A stretch of DNA of 32,444 nt, from the IMG/VR virus record IMGVR_UViG_3300002134_000023, positions 1-32,444 of that record, one strand, 5' to 3'. Numbering within the stretch: position 1 is the stretch's first letter; each line of letters begins with the position of its first letter. A model generated the notes under the pieces. That model had not been told where the DNA came from. It worked only from the letters and a program-made list of their open reading frames with translations, and did no database searches. Below, piece by piece: positions 1,996-32,444 of this stretch. This DNA comes from a virus. A program made the translations under genes and the position numbers.

Positions 1996-4431
1996 ATGGC
2001 AGCTAATGAATTAAAGGTATTATTAACAGGGGACGCCTCTAGGTTAAGCGCCTCGTTAAATACCGCAAGTTCAAGATTAAAAGGGTTTGGAAATAGTGTT
2101 AAAAACATAGGTTCAAGCCTTCAAAGGTTTTCTTTGCCATTGGCATTGGCTGGAGGTGCTGCCGTTAAAATGGGCGCAGACTTTGACAAGTCAATGACCC
2201 AAATAAAATCATTAGTAGGGGTTGCAAGCGCAGAAGTTGATAAGATGGGCGCCGCTGCTAGGCAAATGGCAATTAGTACGGGCAAAAGCAGTACGGAAGC
2301 CGCAGACGCTTTGTTTTTTATTACTTCGGCAGGTTTAAGAGGTTCAGAAGCTATGGACGTTTTAGATGCTTCTTTAAAAGCAGCGGCAGTTGGTTTAGGA
2401 GAAACTTCTACGGTTGCTGATTTAGCAACGTCTGCAATGAACGCTTACGGATCCGCTACATTAAGCGCAACCGATGCTACCGACGTAATGGTATCGGCAG
2501 TAAGAGAAGGTAAACTAGAAGCCAGCGAATTGGCTGGTGCAATGGGTGGTGTTTTGCCTATTGCTTCAAATATGGGTGTTAAGTTTCACGAAGTTGGCGC
2601 TGCATTTGCTGCATTATCTAGGACGGGGACAGGTGCAAGCGAAGCCGCTACTCAAATTAGAGGTATTTTATCTAGTTTATTAAAACCAACTACCCAAGCC
2701 GAAGCAGCACTTACAGAAATGGGACTATCTAGTGCGGGCCTAAGAAAGTCTTTAAAAGAGGACGGTTTACTTGCTACTTTAGAAATATTAAAAACAAATT
2801 TTGAAGGTAACGATACTGCTGCTCAAACTGTTTTTGGAAACGTTAGGGCCTTGTCCGGGGTAATGGATTTACTAGGCGCTGGAGTTGAAAGTACTAGGAC
2901 AATTTTTGCTAGTATGAATAAAACCCAAGGCGCTACGGCAAATGCGTTTAAAGAAACTGCAAAAAGCGCAAGTTTTCAATTAACTGCTTCATTAAATAAA
3001 GCTAAAGAAAGTTTTGCCCAAATGGGTGCAATAATGCTAAAAACTATGCTGCCATTATTCCAGGATATTGCAGCGGTTGTAGCTAAAGTATTTAATGCGT
3101 TTAATAATTTAGACGGTGCTACCCAAAAATTAGTTTTAGGTATTGGCGCTTTAATAGTTGCTTTGCCTACTATATTAACTTTAGTAGGAACTTTAACTAC
3201 AATTGTAGGTGCTTTGTTATCGCCTTTAGGTTTAGTAGCTGCGGCATTAGCTGCGGTTGCATACGTTATATATAAAAACTGGGCCGAAGTTGCGCCGGTT
3301 GTTGTAGGTCTTTACAATCAATTTGTAGATTTATACAATGGAAGCGAGGCGTTAAGAAAAGTTATTGCTGGAGTAGGCGCTACTTTCAAATCCGTATTTA
3401 TAGGCGTTAAAGCGGTTGTAAACGAATTTGTGAACGTTTTTGCTACAATGTGGAACCTTATTAAAGAGTTTTCAGAAAAAGGCACAGACGGAGCATTTGG
3501 CGATATATTAGAACAAGGAGTTGAAAAAGGTAAAGGCATAGCTAAAGAAGCTGGAGAAGATATTGGTAAAGCATATAGTGACGCATTAGCTGCTGCGGTT
3601 GGCAGTAGGCTAGAAAAGAAAACAGTTGAGCAATTAAATGCAAGCCTTACTAATATAGGAAACAAAGCAAAAGGTTTAATAAGCGGAATTTTTAGCGGAG
3701 GTGGTGGTGTTGGAGGTCAAGCGGCAGGAACAGGCCAAGCGGCCCCAGTTAATTTAGCTAGTACATTTGCTTCTAGGGGCGTACAAGGCGACCAATTAAT
3801 AAGCGGAAGCGCTGAAAGCCCTTTAACAGGAGTTGTTGAGCAAATGAATATTGACCTGGAAGGTATGGAAACTGCCCAGCAAAAATATGAGGCTAATTTG
3901 CAAAGAATGCAAGAGATAGGTAATGCAGTAGGGCAATCGGTTGCGGGAGCGTTTAGCAATATGACCGGTTCAATGATTGATTCACTAGGTTTAGCAGATA
4001 CAGGAATGCAAGGCTTTTTAAAAAGTATGCTTAAAACTGTAACTGATTTAATAGCTATGATGTTAGCGTCGTCTATTTCGCAAGCTATTGCAGGAGCAAC
4101 TGCTGCGGGTACGGCAACGGGGCCTGCGGCTATATTTACAACGCCTGCATTTATTGCCACGGCAGTAGGTGGTATTATAGGAGCGTTTGCTGCTATTCCT
4201 GCTTTTGCTAACGGTGGTATTGTTAGCGGGCCTACAATGGGTCTTATGGGAGAATATCCAGGAGCAAAAAGCAATCCGGAAGTTATAGCGCCATTAAACA
4301 AACTTAAAAATTTAATGGGCGAACAAGGCGGTGGTAATAATATGAACGTTAGCGGCGAGTTTGTTGTAAGGGGTCAAGATTTAGTAGTAGCTTTGCAAAG
4401 AGCAGACAAAACAAGGTCGAGAATAAAATAA
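1996..4431 (+). CDS. Tail tape measure protein
   Basis: The 811-residue protein sets tail length and probably helps DNA cross the envelope. The N-terminal third (residues about 50-300) carries the TP901-type tape measure core, with GADFDKSMTQIKSLVG, AADALFFITSAGLRGSEAM and GTGASEAATQIRGILSSLLKP. A hydrophobic block at about 378-428 and another at about 684-745 are probable membrane-interacting segments; alanine- and glycine-rich helical sequence separates them. The C-terminus contains FANGGIVSGPTMGLMGEYPG, a motif common at the end of tape measures. At roughly 1.5 angstrom per residue the length predicts a tail near 120 nm. It follows the chaperones and is 4 bases from the next gene, so they are co-transcribed. 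Confidence 0.93.
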   Translation: MAANELKVLLTGDASRLSASLNTASSRLKGFGNSVKNIGSSLQRFSLPLALAGGAAVKMGADFDKSMTQIKSLVGVASAEVDKMGAAARQMAISTGKSSTEAADALFFITSAGLRGSEAMDVLDASLKAAAVGLGETSTVADLATSAMNAYGSATLSATDATDVMVSAVREGKLEASELAGAMGGVLPIASNMGVKFHEVGAAFAALSRTGTGASEAATQIRGILSSLLKPTTQAEAALTEMGLSSAGLRKSLKEDGLLATLEILKTNFEGNDTAAQTVFGNVRALSGVMDLLGAGVESTRTIFASMNKTQGATANAFKETAKSASFQLTASLNKAKESFAQMGAIMLKTMLPLFQDIAAVVAKVFNAFNNLDGATQKLVLGIGALIVALPTILTLVGTLTTIVGALLSPLGLVAAALAAVAYVIYKNWAEVAPVVVGLYNQFVDLYNGSEALRKVIAGVGATFKSVFIGVKAVVNEFVNVFATMWNLIKEFSEKGTDGAFGDILEQGVEKGKGIAKEAGEDIGKAYSDALAAAVGSRLEKKTVEQLNASLTNIGNKAKGLISGIFSGGGGVGGQAAGTGQAAPVNLASTFASRGVQGDQLISGSAESPLTGVVEQMNIDLEGMETAQQKYEANLQRMQEIGNAVGQSVAGAFSNMTGSMIDSLGLADTGMQGFLKSMLKTVTDLIAMMLASSISQAIAGATAAGTATGPAAIFTTPAFIATAVGGIIGAFAAIPAFANGGIVSGPTMGLMGEYPGAKSNPEVIAPLNKLKNLMGEQGGGNNMNVSGEFVVRGQDLVVALQRADKTRSRIK

Positions 4432-8395: not shown

Positions 8396-8420
8396 AGATT
8401 CCCTTTTTGTTTCTTTGTTG

Positions 8421-8456
8421 GGGGTGGTAGTTTTCGGACTGCTGCCCCTTTTTTTT
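8421..8456 (+). terminator. Rho-independent terminator of the tail operon
   Basis: GGGGTGGTAG (8421-8430) pairs over 10 positions with CTGCTGCCCC (8439-8448), including G-U pairs, around an 8-base loop, followed by eight T. It marks the end of the tail genes and the boundary to the early region. Confidence 0.92.
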
Positions 8457-9895: not shown

Positions 9896-10650
9896 CGAAA
9901 GTAGAAAGCAACGAGGTGTACCACCAAAGCAAGGCGATAAGTTCAAGCGCCCTAAAGACAATACATAAAAAATCGGTTTACCATTACCTAAACCAGGCAC
10001 CGCGTTATAGCAACGCTTTGCAATTAGGTACGGCAATCCATACGGCAGTCCTAGAGCCACAAAACTTTTATGATGAGTTCTATATATCGCCTAAAATAGA
10101 TAAGCGCACAAAAGCCGGTAAAGAGGCTGCTGCAAAGCAGGAAAAATTAGCGGAGGGTAAAAGCGTTATTGAGGCCGACCAATACGATATGATTTTAAAG
10201 ATTAAAGAAAATTTTGAGCGTAACGAACAAGCGGTTTATTATACTAAAGGCGATATTGAACTTTCTCATTATACAACTTACGAAGGCGTTGATGTAAGGG
10301 TAAGGCCTGACTGTATTAATAAGATGCTAGGCTTTATTTCAGACCCAAAGAGTTGCCAAGACAATAGCCCTAGAGCGTTTAAAAGCGACGTGTATAAATG
10401 GGGCTACCATTTACAGGCGGCTTTTTATAGCGATATGCTAGGTATAGACCCAAAGAACTTTGTATTTATTGCAATAGAAACAAACTATCCTTATAGCGTT
10501 GAGTGCTATACACTAAGCGAAAAAATGATTGACGAAGGGCGTAATGCTTACGCAAACGCCATAGCAGATTGGAAGTTTTATTTAGAGACTGGTATAGCTA
10601 CCGGTTATAGAGGTTATGAAAGGAACGAAAACGGAATAATAGTATTATAA
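9889..10650 (+). CDS. RecE-like PD-(D/E)XK exonuclease
   Basis: The 253-residue protein is predicted to resect double-stranded DNA ends and supply single strands for an annealase. Motifs in order: GTAIHTAVLEP with His51, RVRPDCIN with Asp141, the ISDPKS strand with Asp152 and Lys154 (D-x-K), and YHLQAAFY with Gln176 and Tyr180 (QxxxY). This is the RecE/lambda-exonuclease-type active site. Length matches the catalytic domain of exonuclease VIII relatives. It is coupled to the 53-residue gene before it and overlaps the next start by one base. Together with the putative annealase at 8688 it forms a RecE/RecT-like pair. Confidence 0.82.
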   Translation: MVTKVESNEVYHQSKAISSSALKTIHKKSVYHYLNQAPRYSNALQLGTAIHTAVLEPQNFYDEFYISPKIDKRTKAGKEAAAKQEKLAEGKSVIEADQYDMILKIKENFERNEQAVYYTKGDIELSHYTTYEGVDVRVRPDCINKMLGFISDPKSCQDNSPRAFKSDVYKWGYHLQAAFYSDMLGIDPKNFVFIAIETNYPYSVECYTLSEKMIDEGRNAYANAIADWKFYLETGIATGYRGYERNENGIIVL

Positions 10651-11839: not shown

Positions 11840-12075
11840 AACATATCCATTTATATTTTAACGAACACGAGCAAAAAGTAGGCCGTAGAAAACAAATACT
11901 TACAGGGGCCAAAGATGGTTTTGAATACGTTGGAACGCTTACAGAAGTAGAACGGGAACTTTTAATTGAAATACTATTTATGGTTTATGGCGACGACCAT
12001 ATAAGCCTTGATAACTTCCTTAGAATATTTGGCGACCTTAAAACTTTCTGCGATAAAATAAAGCAAATCGTTTAA
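11836..12075 (+). CDS. Hypothetical protein (79 aa)
   Basis: The ATG overlaps the stop of the VRR-NUC gene (ATGA), so translation is coupled. The product begins MKHIHLYFNEHEQKVGRRKQ and contains an acidic and hydrophobic helix pair (TEVERELLIEILFMVYGDD). No family recognised. Confidence 0.65.
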   Translation: MKHIHLYFNEHEQKVGRRKQILTGAKDGFEYVGTLTEVERELLIEILFMVYGDDHISLDNFLRIFGDLKTFCDKIKQIV

Positions 12076-12082
12076 TAATTTT

Positions 12083-12090
12083 TATATTTG
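12083..12090 (+). promoter_or_regulatory. Promoter -7 box TATATTTG of the intergenic RNA
   Basis: An exact TAnnTTTG match lies 8 bases after the preceding stop. Transcription would start near 12096-12098, just upstream of the structured sequence. No good -33 element is seen. Confidence 0.5.
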
Positions 12091-12096
12091 TTTAAG

Positions 12097-12183
12097 ACTT
12101 AGAGGTTACGGGCTAAGTTGTTTAAAAAACATTTAAAGCTAGGGTAGTAGGTGCCGTAACCACCGAACCCCCAGCTTTTTTTT
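12097..12183 (+). ncRNA. Structured intergenic RNA with terminator (possible attenuator or small RNA)
   Basis: GGTTACGG (12104-12111) is perfectly complementary to CCGTAACC (12154-12161). The second strand lies inside the loop of a terminator hairpin made by AAAGCT plus GGG (12135-12144, one bulged A) and CCC plus AGCTTT (12170-12178), which runs into eight T. The 8-bp pairing and the terminator would therefore form a pseudoknot or compete. A -7 box sits just upstream and the replication-protein ATG just downstream. It could be an attenuation leader for the replication genes or a stand-alone small RNA. I cannot assign it to a known family. Confidence 0.55.
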
Positions 12184-12186
12184 ATT

Positions 12187-13101
12187 ATGGACAAAAAGAG
12201 TTACTACGCAATCATTCCGGCAAACGTTAGGTACGACAAAACGTTAAAAGCAAATGCAAAACTTCTGTATGGCGAAATAACTGCTTTGGCTAACGACAAA
12301 GGTTTTTGCTGGAGTACAAATAGTTATTTTGCGAACTTGTACGACGTTTCTAAAACGTCGGTTAGTGTTTGGATTAGCGAACTAGAAAAACGCGGTTATA
12401 TAAGCCTTGAAATGACCTATAAGCAAGGCACAAAACAAATAGAGCAGCGCAAAATATTTATCGCTACCCCTATTAAAGAAAACTTAAATACCTATATAAG
12501 AAAACTTAAAGACCCTATTAAAGAAAACTTAAAGGGTAATATATATACTAATAATATTAATAATACAAAAGAGAATAATACAATTAATACCGCACAGGTT
12601 AAAAAACCTGCGCCAGCTAGATATTCTAAATTAGTTGAAAATGCTTTTGCGCCATATTTAGATTTATTTAAAGGCGAAAAAACTTTGCCTGCAAATGAAA
12701 GCCAAAAAATAGCTTGGAAAAATACATTGGTTTGGTTTGAAAAAAACGACTACGATTTAAGGGAAGTATATGCTGCGGTTAAGTGGGCCAGGCAAGACCC
12801 TTTTTGGCGACCAAATGTATTAAGTCTACCAGCTTTAAAAAATGTACGTAATTCTGTACGTAAAATTGATAACATAATGGCGAAGTATAAAATCGCTAGC
12901 AAAGAAATAGCTAAGCCAAAATATATGGCTGCTATTAAAAACGCAAAGGAATGGTATTTAGCTGAAAATAAAAGAGGCGAAATAGAATTGTACGTACAAC
13001 TTTACAACGGTACGATAATAAACGAGTTTTTGCTTACCCAAAACGTTGAGGTGGGAAGGCGAGGTGTAGAACAAATAAGAAACTATTTACAAAATGCTTA
13101 A
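12187..13101 (+). CDS. Winged-helix replication initiation-like protein
   Basis: The N-terminal 90 residues read YYAIIPANVRYDKTLKANAK, then ALANDKGFCWSTNSYFANLY and VSKTSVSVWISELEKRGYIS, a winged helix typical of phage and plasmid replication initiators. A polar linker with asparagine and threonine repeats (residues about 118-135) is encoded by very AT-rich DNA. The C-terminal half (WKNTLVWFEKNDYDLREVYA, WARQDPFWRPNVLSLPAL) resembles DnaD/DnaB-II-like modules that bind DNA and helicase. It stands 4 bases behind the T-run of the structured RNA and before the primase-helicase gene, consistent with origin binding or helicase loading. The AT-rich linker could harbour the origin, but no iterons are obvious. 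Confidence 0.7.
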   Translation: MDKKSYYAIIPANVRYDKTLKANAKLLYGEITALANDKGFCWSTNSYFANLYDVSKTSVSVWISELEKRGYISLEMTYKQGTKQIEQRKIFIATPIKENLNTYIRKLKDPIKENLKGNIYTNNINNTKENNTINTAQVKKPAPARYSKLVENAFAPYLDLFKGEKTLPANESQKIAWKNTLVWFEKNDYDLREVYAAVKWARQDPFWRPNVLSLPALKNVRNSVRKIDNIMAKYKIASKEIAKPKYMAAIKNAKEWYLAENKRGEIELYVQLYNGTIINEFLLTQNVEVGRRGVEQIRNYLQNA

Positions 13102-17815: not shown

Positions 17816-18475
17816 ATGGGGAGAGCAAAAGAAATATTAGTTAAAGTTATACCTAGTAAAATAGCTAATGAATTTGTCAAAAAAAACCATTATAGCGGTA
17901 AAGTAGTGCCAAACAGTACTTTGCATTTTGGTTGTTTTTTAGATAATAAATTGCACGGTGTTATGTCTTACGGCCCTAGTATAAATAAAAAAGGCACTAT
18001 TAATTTAGTTAAAAATACTGGTTGGAATGAATTTATTGAACTTAACAGAATGGCTTTTGATGATTATTTACCAAAATATTCTGAAAGTAGATGTATTGCA
18101 ATAAGTATTAAATTAATTAAAAAAAATGCACCGCATATAAAATGGATTATTAGTTTTGCAGACGGTACACAATGCGGAGATGGAACAATATATAGAGCAA
18201 GTGGTTTTAAATTAGTTGGTATTGTAGATAATACCGCTTTAAGAATAAATCCAAAAACAGGCGAAGCAATTCACGTTATACAGGCACATCATTTAAAAAT
18301 AAGCAGCGAGTTTAGAAATTGGAAACCATTTGAAGGTAAGCAATTAAAATATATTTATTTAATAGATAAAAGTTGTCAAATAAATGCCGATATACTGCCA
18401 TTTAGCGAAATAGATAAACAAGGAGCTGGTATGTATAAAGGCGAAAAAATAACTTTAAAAGACAGGCGTAATTAG
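17816..18475 (+). CDS. mom: Mom-family DNA hypermodification protein, paralogue 2
   Basis: The 219-residue protein is the clearer Mom homologue of the pair: KKNHYSGKVVPNSTLHFGCF (H25, Y26), LHGVMSYGPS (46-55), NEFIELNRMAFDDYLPKYSE (71-90) and IISFADGTQCGDGTIYRASG (111-130). The GNAT-like fold is expected to transfer a carbamoylmethyl group to adenine in phage DNA, giving resistance to host restriction. The motif order is the same as in paralogue 1, so the genes arose by duplication or were acquired together. The last codons (R-R-N-stop) double as the acceptor strand of the tRNA-Gly-like element, and a terminator follows 62 bases later. Confidence 0.85.
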   Translation: MGRAKEILVKVIPSKIANEFVKKNHYSGKVVPNSTLHFGCFLDNKLHGVMSYGPSINKKGTINLVKNTGWNEFIELNRMAFDDYLPKYSESRCIAISIKLIKKNAPHIKWIISFADGTQCGDGTIYRASGFKLVGIVDNTALRINPKTGEAIHVIQAHHLKISSEFRNWKPFEGKQLKYIYLIDKSCQINADILPFSEIDKQGAGMYKGEKITLKDRRN

Positions 18476-18535
18476 TGTACTGGTAGCACATCTAACAACC
18501 AGTTAGAAAGAGGGGTTCGATTCCACCATTACGCT
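18466..18535 (+). tRNA. tRNA-Gly-like element with non-canonical anticodon loop
   Basis: Acceptor GCGTAAT (18466-18472) pairs perfectly with ATTACGC (18528-18534), discriminator T (18535). The D-arm is GTGT, loop ACTGGTA, GCAC (18475-18489). The anticodon stem is TCTAA/TTAGA (18491-18495, 18503-18507) with loop CAACCAG: position 33 is A instead of the invariant U, and 34-36 read ACC. The T-loop is TTCGATT (18516-18522) on a 4-bp stem with one bulged A; the variable region is only about 4 bases. G1-C72, C2-G71, G3-C70, C35, C36 and U73 are the E. coli glycine identity set. CTA rather than CCA follows. It overlaps the mom stop codon. Probably chargeable but poor in decoding; a pseudogene remains possible. 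Confidence 0.6.
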
Positions 18536-18537
18536 CT

Positions 18538-18570
18538 AAAGGTAGATTTAAAAAAGTCTACCTTTTTTTT
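18538..18570 (+). terminator. Rho-independent terminator of the modification operon
   Basis: AAAGGTAGA (18538-18546) pairs perfectly with TCTACCTTT (18557-18565) around a 10-base loop, inside a run of eight T. It ends transcripts just behind the tRNA-like element. Confidence 0.9.
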
Positions 18571-30329: not shown

Positions 30330-30333
30330 TGTT

Positions 30334-30456
30334 ATGCTAGGCATAGGAAATAATTTAACGAGAATAATACAAAAAACAATAACTATAATTAGTGATTTTT
30401 GGCAAGACCAAGTAAACGTCTGGCAGGATCAAAACACCGATTGGGATAATACATAA
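30334..30456 (+). CDS. Hypothetical 40-residue protein
   Basis: The gene starts four bases after the previous stop and ends 10 bases before the next gene. The product has an amphipathic N-terminus (NNLTRIIQKTITIISDFWQD) and a W-rich end (VWQDQNTDWDNT), similar in phrase to the W-rich N-terminal region of the tail-tip protein. Possibly a small virion component. Confidence 0.5.
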   Translation: MLGIGNNLTRIIQKTITIISDFWQDQVNVWQDQNTDWDNT

Positions 30457-31692: not shown

Positions 31693-32444
31693 ATGTTAGC
31701 TAAGAGATTAATAAAAAGTAATGATGCAGGGGGCGGTGGTTGCACTAATACAGTAGATTTATACAATCCATTTCCAGACGGTGGTGGTATTGCTTTGTAT
31801 CAATTAAATGGCGATGCTACTGATGTAAGTGGGAATTATAATGGTACTGCTTCAAATGTTACTTATGGCACAGGACAGTTTGGTCAAGCAGGTGTTTTTA
31901 ATGGTAGTAATAGTTATGTAGTGATAGATGATAGCTCAGCTTTAAGATTAACAGGTTCTTATACTGTTTCATTATGGGTTAAATTTAATTCTTTTTCAAC
32001 TTTTCAAAGAATAATAACTAAGGATAATGCAAACGATTATAGTGGAGGATATTCTTTTAATGCTAATTCAACTAATATTTATTGGCAACATAATAATGGC
32101 TCTGCAACTGATGTAGTTTTTCCTAATACTTTATCAACAGCTACTTGGTACAATCTTTGTATTGTTTACGATTCTTCAAATACATCTAATAATTTATTTT
32201 TTTATGTTAATGGAGTTCTTGAAGTTACTGATTCCGCTGCCTCCCCAATTATTGGAGAAGCAGGCAATAAGTTATTTTTTGGGACTTATGGCTCGTCAAG
32301 TCCTTTAGGTCAATACTTAAATGGAGATTTAGACCAAGTAAGAATATTCAACAGAGCATTAAGACCTTACGAAGTAGAGGCTTTATATACAGAAGAATAT
32401 TGTACACCTACTATTGTACCAAGTGAGCATTTTAATACTGTTTT
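31693..32444 (+). CDS. LamG-domain adhesin, 3'-truncated by window end
   Basis: The frame is open to the last base (250 codons plus two bases). After an N-terminal MLAKRLIKSNDAGGGGCTNT, residues about 40-225 form a LamG/concanavalin-like domain: ATDVSGNYNGTASNVTYGTG, VFNGSNSYVVIDDSSALRLT, YTVSLWVKFNSFSTFQRIIT and LDQVRIFNRALRPYEVEALY. The end EEYCTPTIVPSEHFNTV is the usual bridge to DUF7483 modules, which are found at base 1 of the window. It probably binds host surface sugars. Confidence 0.85.
   Translation, partial: MLAKRLIKSNDAGGGGCTNTVDLYNPFPDGGGIALYQLNGDATDVSGNYNGTASNVTYGTGQFGQAGVFNGSNSYVVIDDSSALRLTGSYTVSLWVKFNSFSTFQRIITKDNANDYSGGYSFNANSTNIYWQHNNGSATDVVFPNTLSTATWYNLCIVYDSSNTSNNLFFYVNGVLEVTDSAASPIIGEAGNKLFFGTYGSSSPLGQYLNGDLDQVRIFNRALRPYEVEALYTEEYCTPTIVPSEHFNTV

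Follow-up and report, generated by a model that had tools for sequence, protein, structure and literature searches.

Described RNAs of comparable design

In phage lambda, the oop RNA and the tR1 region place a small terminated transcript and a terminator near the replication genes. The oop RNA is antisense to cII and carries no kissing loop. The guanidine-IV riboswitch (mepA/GGAM-1), which turns transcription on when it binds guanidine, and its Gd4v variant resemble the element in architecture. They consist of two hairpins with loop-loop pairing, the 3' one being a terminator followed by U residues, and they too sit before open reading frames. For guanidine-IV, a steric coupling of the kiss and the terminator has been proposed (PMC7736828, PMC9788692, PMC11611296), in which ligand-stabilised kissing blocks the complete closure of the terminator by stretching the linker (PMC7736828, PMC11611296). 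The conserved bases of guanidine-IV lie in and around its pseudoknot loops. In the phage element, by contrast, the loops are unconserved, with 18 different pairs, and conservation resides in a bulged-G internal loop and a GGYG/CRCC helix; it also belongs to phage replication modules and not to guanidine-related genes. Judged from sequence, the element is guanidine-IV-like in outline and is not classed there, as an Rfam match and the loop conservation are both absent.

A further likeness concerns only the 3' hairpin, H2. TEG147 (RF03535), a genomic-island RNA of S. aureus, has the same layout of a 9-bp stem, GAGUA/GAAA, a 4-bp stem, a loop and a U tract, while its Rfam model has no counterpart of the 5' hairpin, H1. 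The best score of TEG147 was obtained with an uncultured relative, L201, at 33.1 bits (E 3.7e-5 on 201 nt), which does not reach the curated cut-off of 56.1 bits; the TEG147-like element lies at 515-563 of that locus on the minus strand. No TEG147 match was found in the window record at E<=1. The likeness hints that hairpins of the H2 type could also occur in mobile elements of Firmicutes.

The Rfam comparison advised in the original prediction yielded no known family. The window reached the gathering threshold of none, a result that covers guanidine-IV only if it is part of that Rfam set, and relaxing the limit to E<=10 brought up nothing but an unrelated model of a CRISPR repeat. No account of the element turned up in a search of open-access papers; it is a structured RNA that has so far gone undescribed and that Bacteroidota phages carry at the replication module.

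The locus before the replication-initiation gene

The window, that is, the whole stretch of DNA analysed, is a 32.4-kb viral contig (32,444 nucleotides) with promoter boxes of the Bacteroidota type. It holds a single copy of the RNA element, in the gap between the end of a 79-aa ORF at 12075 and the start of the replication-initiation gene at 12187; the parts of the RNA and the gene after it lie on the plus strand. The gap opens with the -7 box TATATTTG (12083-12090), a Bacteroidota-type TAnnTTTG promoter element, and the RNA is predicted to start at about 12094-12097, at the base of H1. H1 (12096-12119) is a 7-bp hairpin, GACTTAG (12096-12102) with CTAAGTT (12113-12119), closed by a 10-nt loop (12103-12112). 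The 5' strand of the kiss, GGTTACGG (12104-12111), is located inside this loop. A linker of 15 nt (12120-12134) leads to H2; it measures 15-23 nt across the six members measured.

H2 (12135-12178) is a terminator-like hairpin that shows covariation in relatives. Its basal stem (12135-12144/12169-12178) has 9 bp plus an A-C mismatch and is followed by the internal loop UAGUA (12145-12149) opposite GAAC (12165-12168), of bulged-G consensus, the inner stem GGUG/CACC (12150-12153/12161-12164) and a 7-nt apical loop (12154-12160). The 3' strand of the kiss, CCGTAACC (12154-12161), is the exact complement of the 5' strand. C12161 is also the last inner-stem base of H2, which leaves seven kiss pairs free of conflict. 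A T8 tract (12176-12183) forms the 3' end of the terminator, 3 nt before the ATG. The box, the two complementary strands and their positions had been named beforehand, and both coordinates and complementarity proved exact.

With a G+C-containing stem followed by a U tract, H2 has the make-up of a candidate intrinsic terminator. A terminator consensus scan did not list it, probably because of the internal loop. Elsewhere in the window, a strong classical terminator hairpin (13 bp, 6 GC, T7) lies at 8420-8456, where the long structural genes end, and positions 18466-18570 hold a tRNA-Gly (anticodon acc) and, immediately after it, a hairpin of 12 bp that has a T tract.

The protein encoded after the RNA (12187-13101, 304 aa), expected earlier to be a replication protein, is a replication-initiation protein (PF13730 HTH_36, phrog_19658). 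Downstream of it lies a TOPRIM primase/helicase gene, whose product has relatives in Flavobacterium and Cellulophaga phages, among others. No further promoter is seen between the U tract and the ATG of the initiator gene in the window; the transcripts of this gene must therefore cross H2.

The kissing loops and the family of elements

The two strands meet as a loop-loop kiss, which can form with both hairpins intact. The original prediction had described a loop pairing with the leader. The pairing itself stands, whereas the free leader strand does not, as GGTTACGG lies in the loop of H1. Across 18 phage loci or copies, of which five belong to cultured phages, 18 different loop pairs were found, each exactly complementary over 6-9 bp. 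The window on its own offers modest statistics: the 8-nt match of the H2 loop with the 110 nt upstream has a shuffle p of about 0.003, and the fold energy without the kiss is ordinary (z -0.18). The proof of the kiss is therefore comparative, coming from the 18 complementary and mutually different pairs.

When the H2 loops of 15 elements were compared with the 110 nt preceding each, the longest exact complement of a loop to its own upstream sequence spanned 6-9 nt, whereas mismatched combinations averaged 4.05; the partner lay 20-30 nt before H2 in all except L202 (73 nt). Complementarity was not a criterion in finding 16 of the 18 pairs. Their shuffle p values, combined by Fisher's method, gave about 5e-16, which is to be read only as indicative, since in the cultured phages the T-run hairpin of each gap was identified by eye, and for two of these hairpins the individual p is 0.03-0.08. 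The loop sequences themselves are not conserved (mean identity 2.2/6 in anchored 6-mers). In one record that carries two paralogous copies, an A-U pair of the kiss in one copy is replaced by G-C in the other, a compensatory change (GTATCCG/CGGATAC against GTGTCCG/CGGACAC). This 32.8-kb record (L206, G008:C1) carries the RNA plus the replication gene at 31729-31776 and 3239-3286, both on the minus strand, and the two copies could be a real duplication or a two-strain assembly. As a sole marker, the exact 8-mer pattern GGTTACGG...CCGTAACC was discarded, being unspecific and common in viral contigs among the matches listed.

Covariation among relatives had been set beforehand as a test, and on being run it was found. 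The H1 stem covaries, with a G-U to G-C change in L006 and other stems in types B, C, F and K. In H2, 83% of the cells are paired, with 21 double changes (0/500 shuffles). In the main group, the basal stem covaries and has about 9 bp; it is joined by xAGUA/GAAx, the GGYG/CRCC helix and a loop of 6-8 nt, and conserved sequence is limited to xAGUA/GAAx, GGYG/CRCC and the U tract. Most non-cultured members carry the internal loop and the helix exactly, along with this stem. AGUA opposite GAA, flanked by pairs, is invariant in 11/11 alignment rows and fits, at the level of sequence, the consensus of a bulged-G (sarcin-ricin/loop E) module. The module is absent from L173, L181, L105 and four of the five cultured members; it thus marks the main group and not the whole family. 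A T/U tract is found in every member compared, and a TATATTTG-type -7 box stands directly before the element in L118, L201, L216, L173, L181, tooticki, Harreka, phi19:3 and elemoC.

Among close relatives, collected as Rep homologues with their upstream regions, two RNA types were seen. Type A, with the pair GGTTACGG/CCGTAACC, comprises the window and L002-L006. Type B (L007-L014) has ATGCGG/CCGCAT, and its H1 stem, which covaries, differs from that of type A and reaches up to 12 bp. In these relatives the RNA type travels with the N-terminal, DNA-binding half of Rep. L007 and L005 share 95-97% identity to either side of a stretch comprising the RNA and the N-terminal part of rep and diverge almost only there, which suggests that the RNA and the DNA-binding half are exchanged as one cassette; adjacency alone could explain this. 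The exchanged segment is equivalent to 12091 to about 12580 of the window, and one breakpoint falls right after the -7 box. In L016, L175 and L177, rep and the small gene upstream are retained without the RNA, so the element is dispensable or exchangeable.

The wider uncultured family was reached by two routes. A profile of the upstream small protein, blind to the RNA, led to L172 (GTGCAG/CTGCAC), L173 (GTAAGGG/CCCTTAC) and L181-L184 (AGTAGAGG/CCTCTACT). A DNA pattern of the H2 core, used without a kissing criterion, led to L201, L202, L203, L208, L213, L215 and L216, in every one of which a loop further upstream complements that of H2. An H2 covariance model, R1, matched 26 loci at E<=1e-7, including the sequences it was built from, and in a further 886 kb of viral loci its only matches were two weak ones, L118 and L065. 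Both are genuine elements with kiss and -7 box, though their kiss is not independent evidence, as these loci came from the exact 8-mer kissing pattern. The pattern matches L143-L145, L204, L205, L209, L212, L214 and L217 were set aside as false positives, having no terminator context or a weak or missing model score. A blast search of the RNA in phages and plasmids gave nothing usable, the sequence being too variable, and pattern and protein scans of host genome contigs gave no match.

Cultured phages were selected by protein similarity only and then inspected at the replication module. The kissing pairs are GTGAGACG/CGTCTCAC in the Flavobacterium phages tooticki and hemulen/sniff/stinky, TGAGAGC/GCTCTCA in the elemo phages, GTGGTGG/CCACCAC in Olleya Harreka_1 (with AGUA/GAA present and an R1 score of 21 bits), GTACGAC/GTCGTAC in Cellulophaga phi10:1 and CTCTCACAA/TTGTGAGAG in Cellulophaga phi19:3/phi13:2. 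In each, a small ORF and/or the replication gene is preceded by a -7-like box, a strand for the kiss and, downstream of that strand, a terminator-like hairpin. The distance from the U tract to the next ATG, about 18 to 48 nt, is longer than in the window. In the sewage phage PJN03, no element was seen at the replication module. In cultured Flavobacteriia phages, the small ORF that precedes the replication gene has another short, hairpin-like motif, GGTnnnCTTnAAACC or similar, 15-30 nt ahead of its ATG (L220, about 12750-12779; L222, about 10350-10381; L221, about 30330-30357).

Comparison establishes both the fold of the element and its location. With few exceptions its place is ahead of the replication module: in tooticki, hemulen, Harreka, phi10:1, phi19:3 and the elemo phages and, among the uncultured, in the window family, L172, L202, L203, L215 and L216. 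Four members, L208, L213, L201 and L173, have something other than a replication initiator as their first gene downstream.

Proposed attenuation in cis and its alternatives

The structured leader with loop pairing and terminator, as originally predicted, is strongly upheld by the covariation, and among the uses offered for it attenuation in cis is the best supported, because no other promoter precedes the rep ATG and transcripts must pass the terminator. We infer, with a probability of roughly one half, that a leader of some 88 nt, driven by a promoter of its own and closing with an intrinsic terminator before the replication operon, attenuates the transcription of the replication genes in cis. 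The comparative kiss, the covariation of H2, the placement at replication genes and the guanidine-IV analogue (PMC7736828, PMC11611296) argue for this leader. The direct adjacency of the ATG is weak evidence for action in cis, as compact phage operons put ORFs close after anything.

In the proposed course of events, the loops of H1 and H2 would kiss once the H2 loop emerges. Closure of the basal stem of H2 would then shorten the linker, so that the kiss and the full closure of the terminator may be sterically coupled. By our own estimate, the linkers measured would have to serve about 31-35 stacked base pairs, which would bring them near the spanning limit and under a tension like that of guanidine-IV. 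The bulged-G/GGYG core is the likely docking site for a putative factor or ligand that would decide read-through; that read-through is regulated rather than fixed is an assumption of the model.

The main rival, tentative yet deserving of attention, is a free phage sRNA, in which case the transcript of about 88 nt would be terminated, compact and resistant to exonucleases, with the kiss holding it together, and active in trans through protein binding at the bulged-G core or through RNA pairing, with the terminator serving only as its 3' end. The element has its own promoter, H1 at the predicted 5' end and the U tract at the 3' end, so that both ends are closed by hairpins; its conserved core is a motif of the protein- or RNA-docking type. 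TEG147, a 60-nt RNA listed as a bona fide sRNA, has the 9 bp/GAGUA-GAAA/4 bp/loop/U-tract layout, and the downstream gene is not always a replication initiator. Yet the element is tied to the replication module across unrelated phages, and rep can be transcribed only through it. The loop sequences also change freely, which implies that they pair with no fixed outside target.

It is rather doubtful that the element is a constitutive dose setter, a partial terminator whose rigid tertiary fold would fix a low level of replication protein with no ligand or factor. Such an architecture alone would yield fixed read-through, and no conserved alternative base-paired structure exists. But xAGUA/GAAx and GGYG/CRCC are exactly conserved while stems and loops vary, and this implies recognition or a specific tertiary fold beyond plain termination.

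A more speculative and improbable idea is that the fast-changing, self-complementary loop pairs form a private recognition code, by which the RNA, released or nascent, kisses its own kind in trans. If true, phage replication would be tuned by RNA from genomes of the same code, and superinfecting relatives would escape by a change of code, comparable to the control of plasmid copy number and incompatibility by kissing RNAs.

An origin-linked role, as a primer, an R-loop transcript or a replication-control RNA and not as a control of expression, is very unlikely. The position at the replication module and the joint swap of the RNA type with the DNA-binding half of the initiator (L007 against L005) speak for it; the swap also follows from adjacency, however, and some members precede other genes. 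Least probable of all is a classical attenuator or riboswitch whose leader strand pairs away part of the terminator: the terminator does sit in the leader, and the leader of phi10:1 has 8 nt, TCATAGTT, that complement the 3' arm of the terminator, but no such alternative was found in the window (by eye) or in the other cultured members, the pairing of the leader with the 5' arm (in truncated transcripts) lies below the shuffled mean in eight of ten types, and the kiss is compatible with both hairpins, so that the base-pair competition first envisaged finds no support and only steric competition remains.

To our knowledge, no control RNA is known for the timing or dosing of replication in Bacteroidota phages. 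The element is covered by no described RNA family and precedes replication genes in cultured phages of Flavobacterium, Cellulophaga and Olleya as well as in diverse uncultured phages. Its 18 natural, mutually different kissing pairs are a ready set for studying kissing-loop control of termination. It looks like a control element for starting phage replication and is a testable handle on how replication is timed and dosed in the phages of Bacteroidota.
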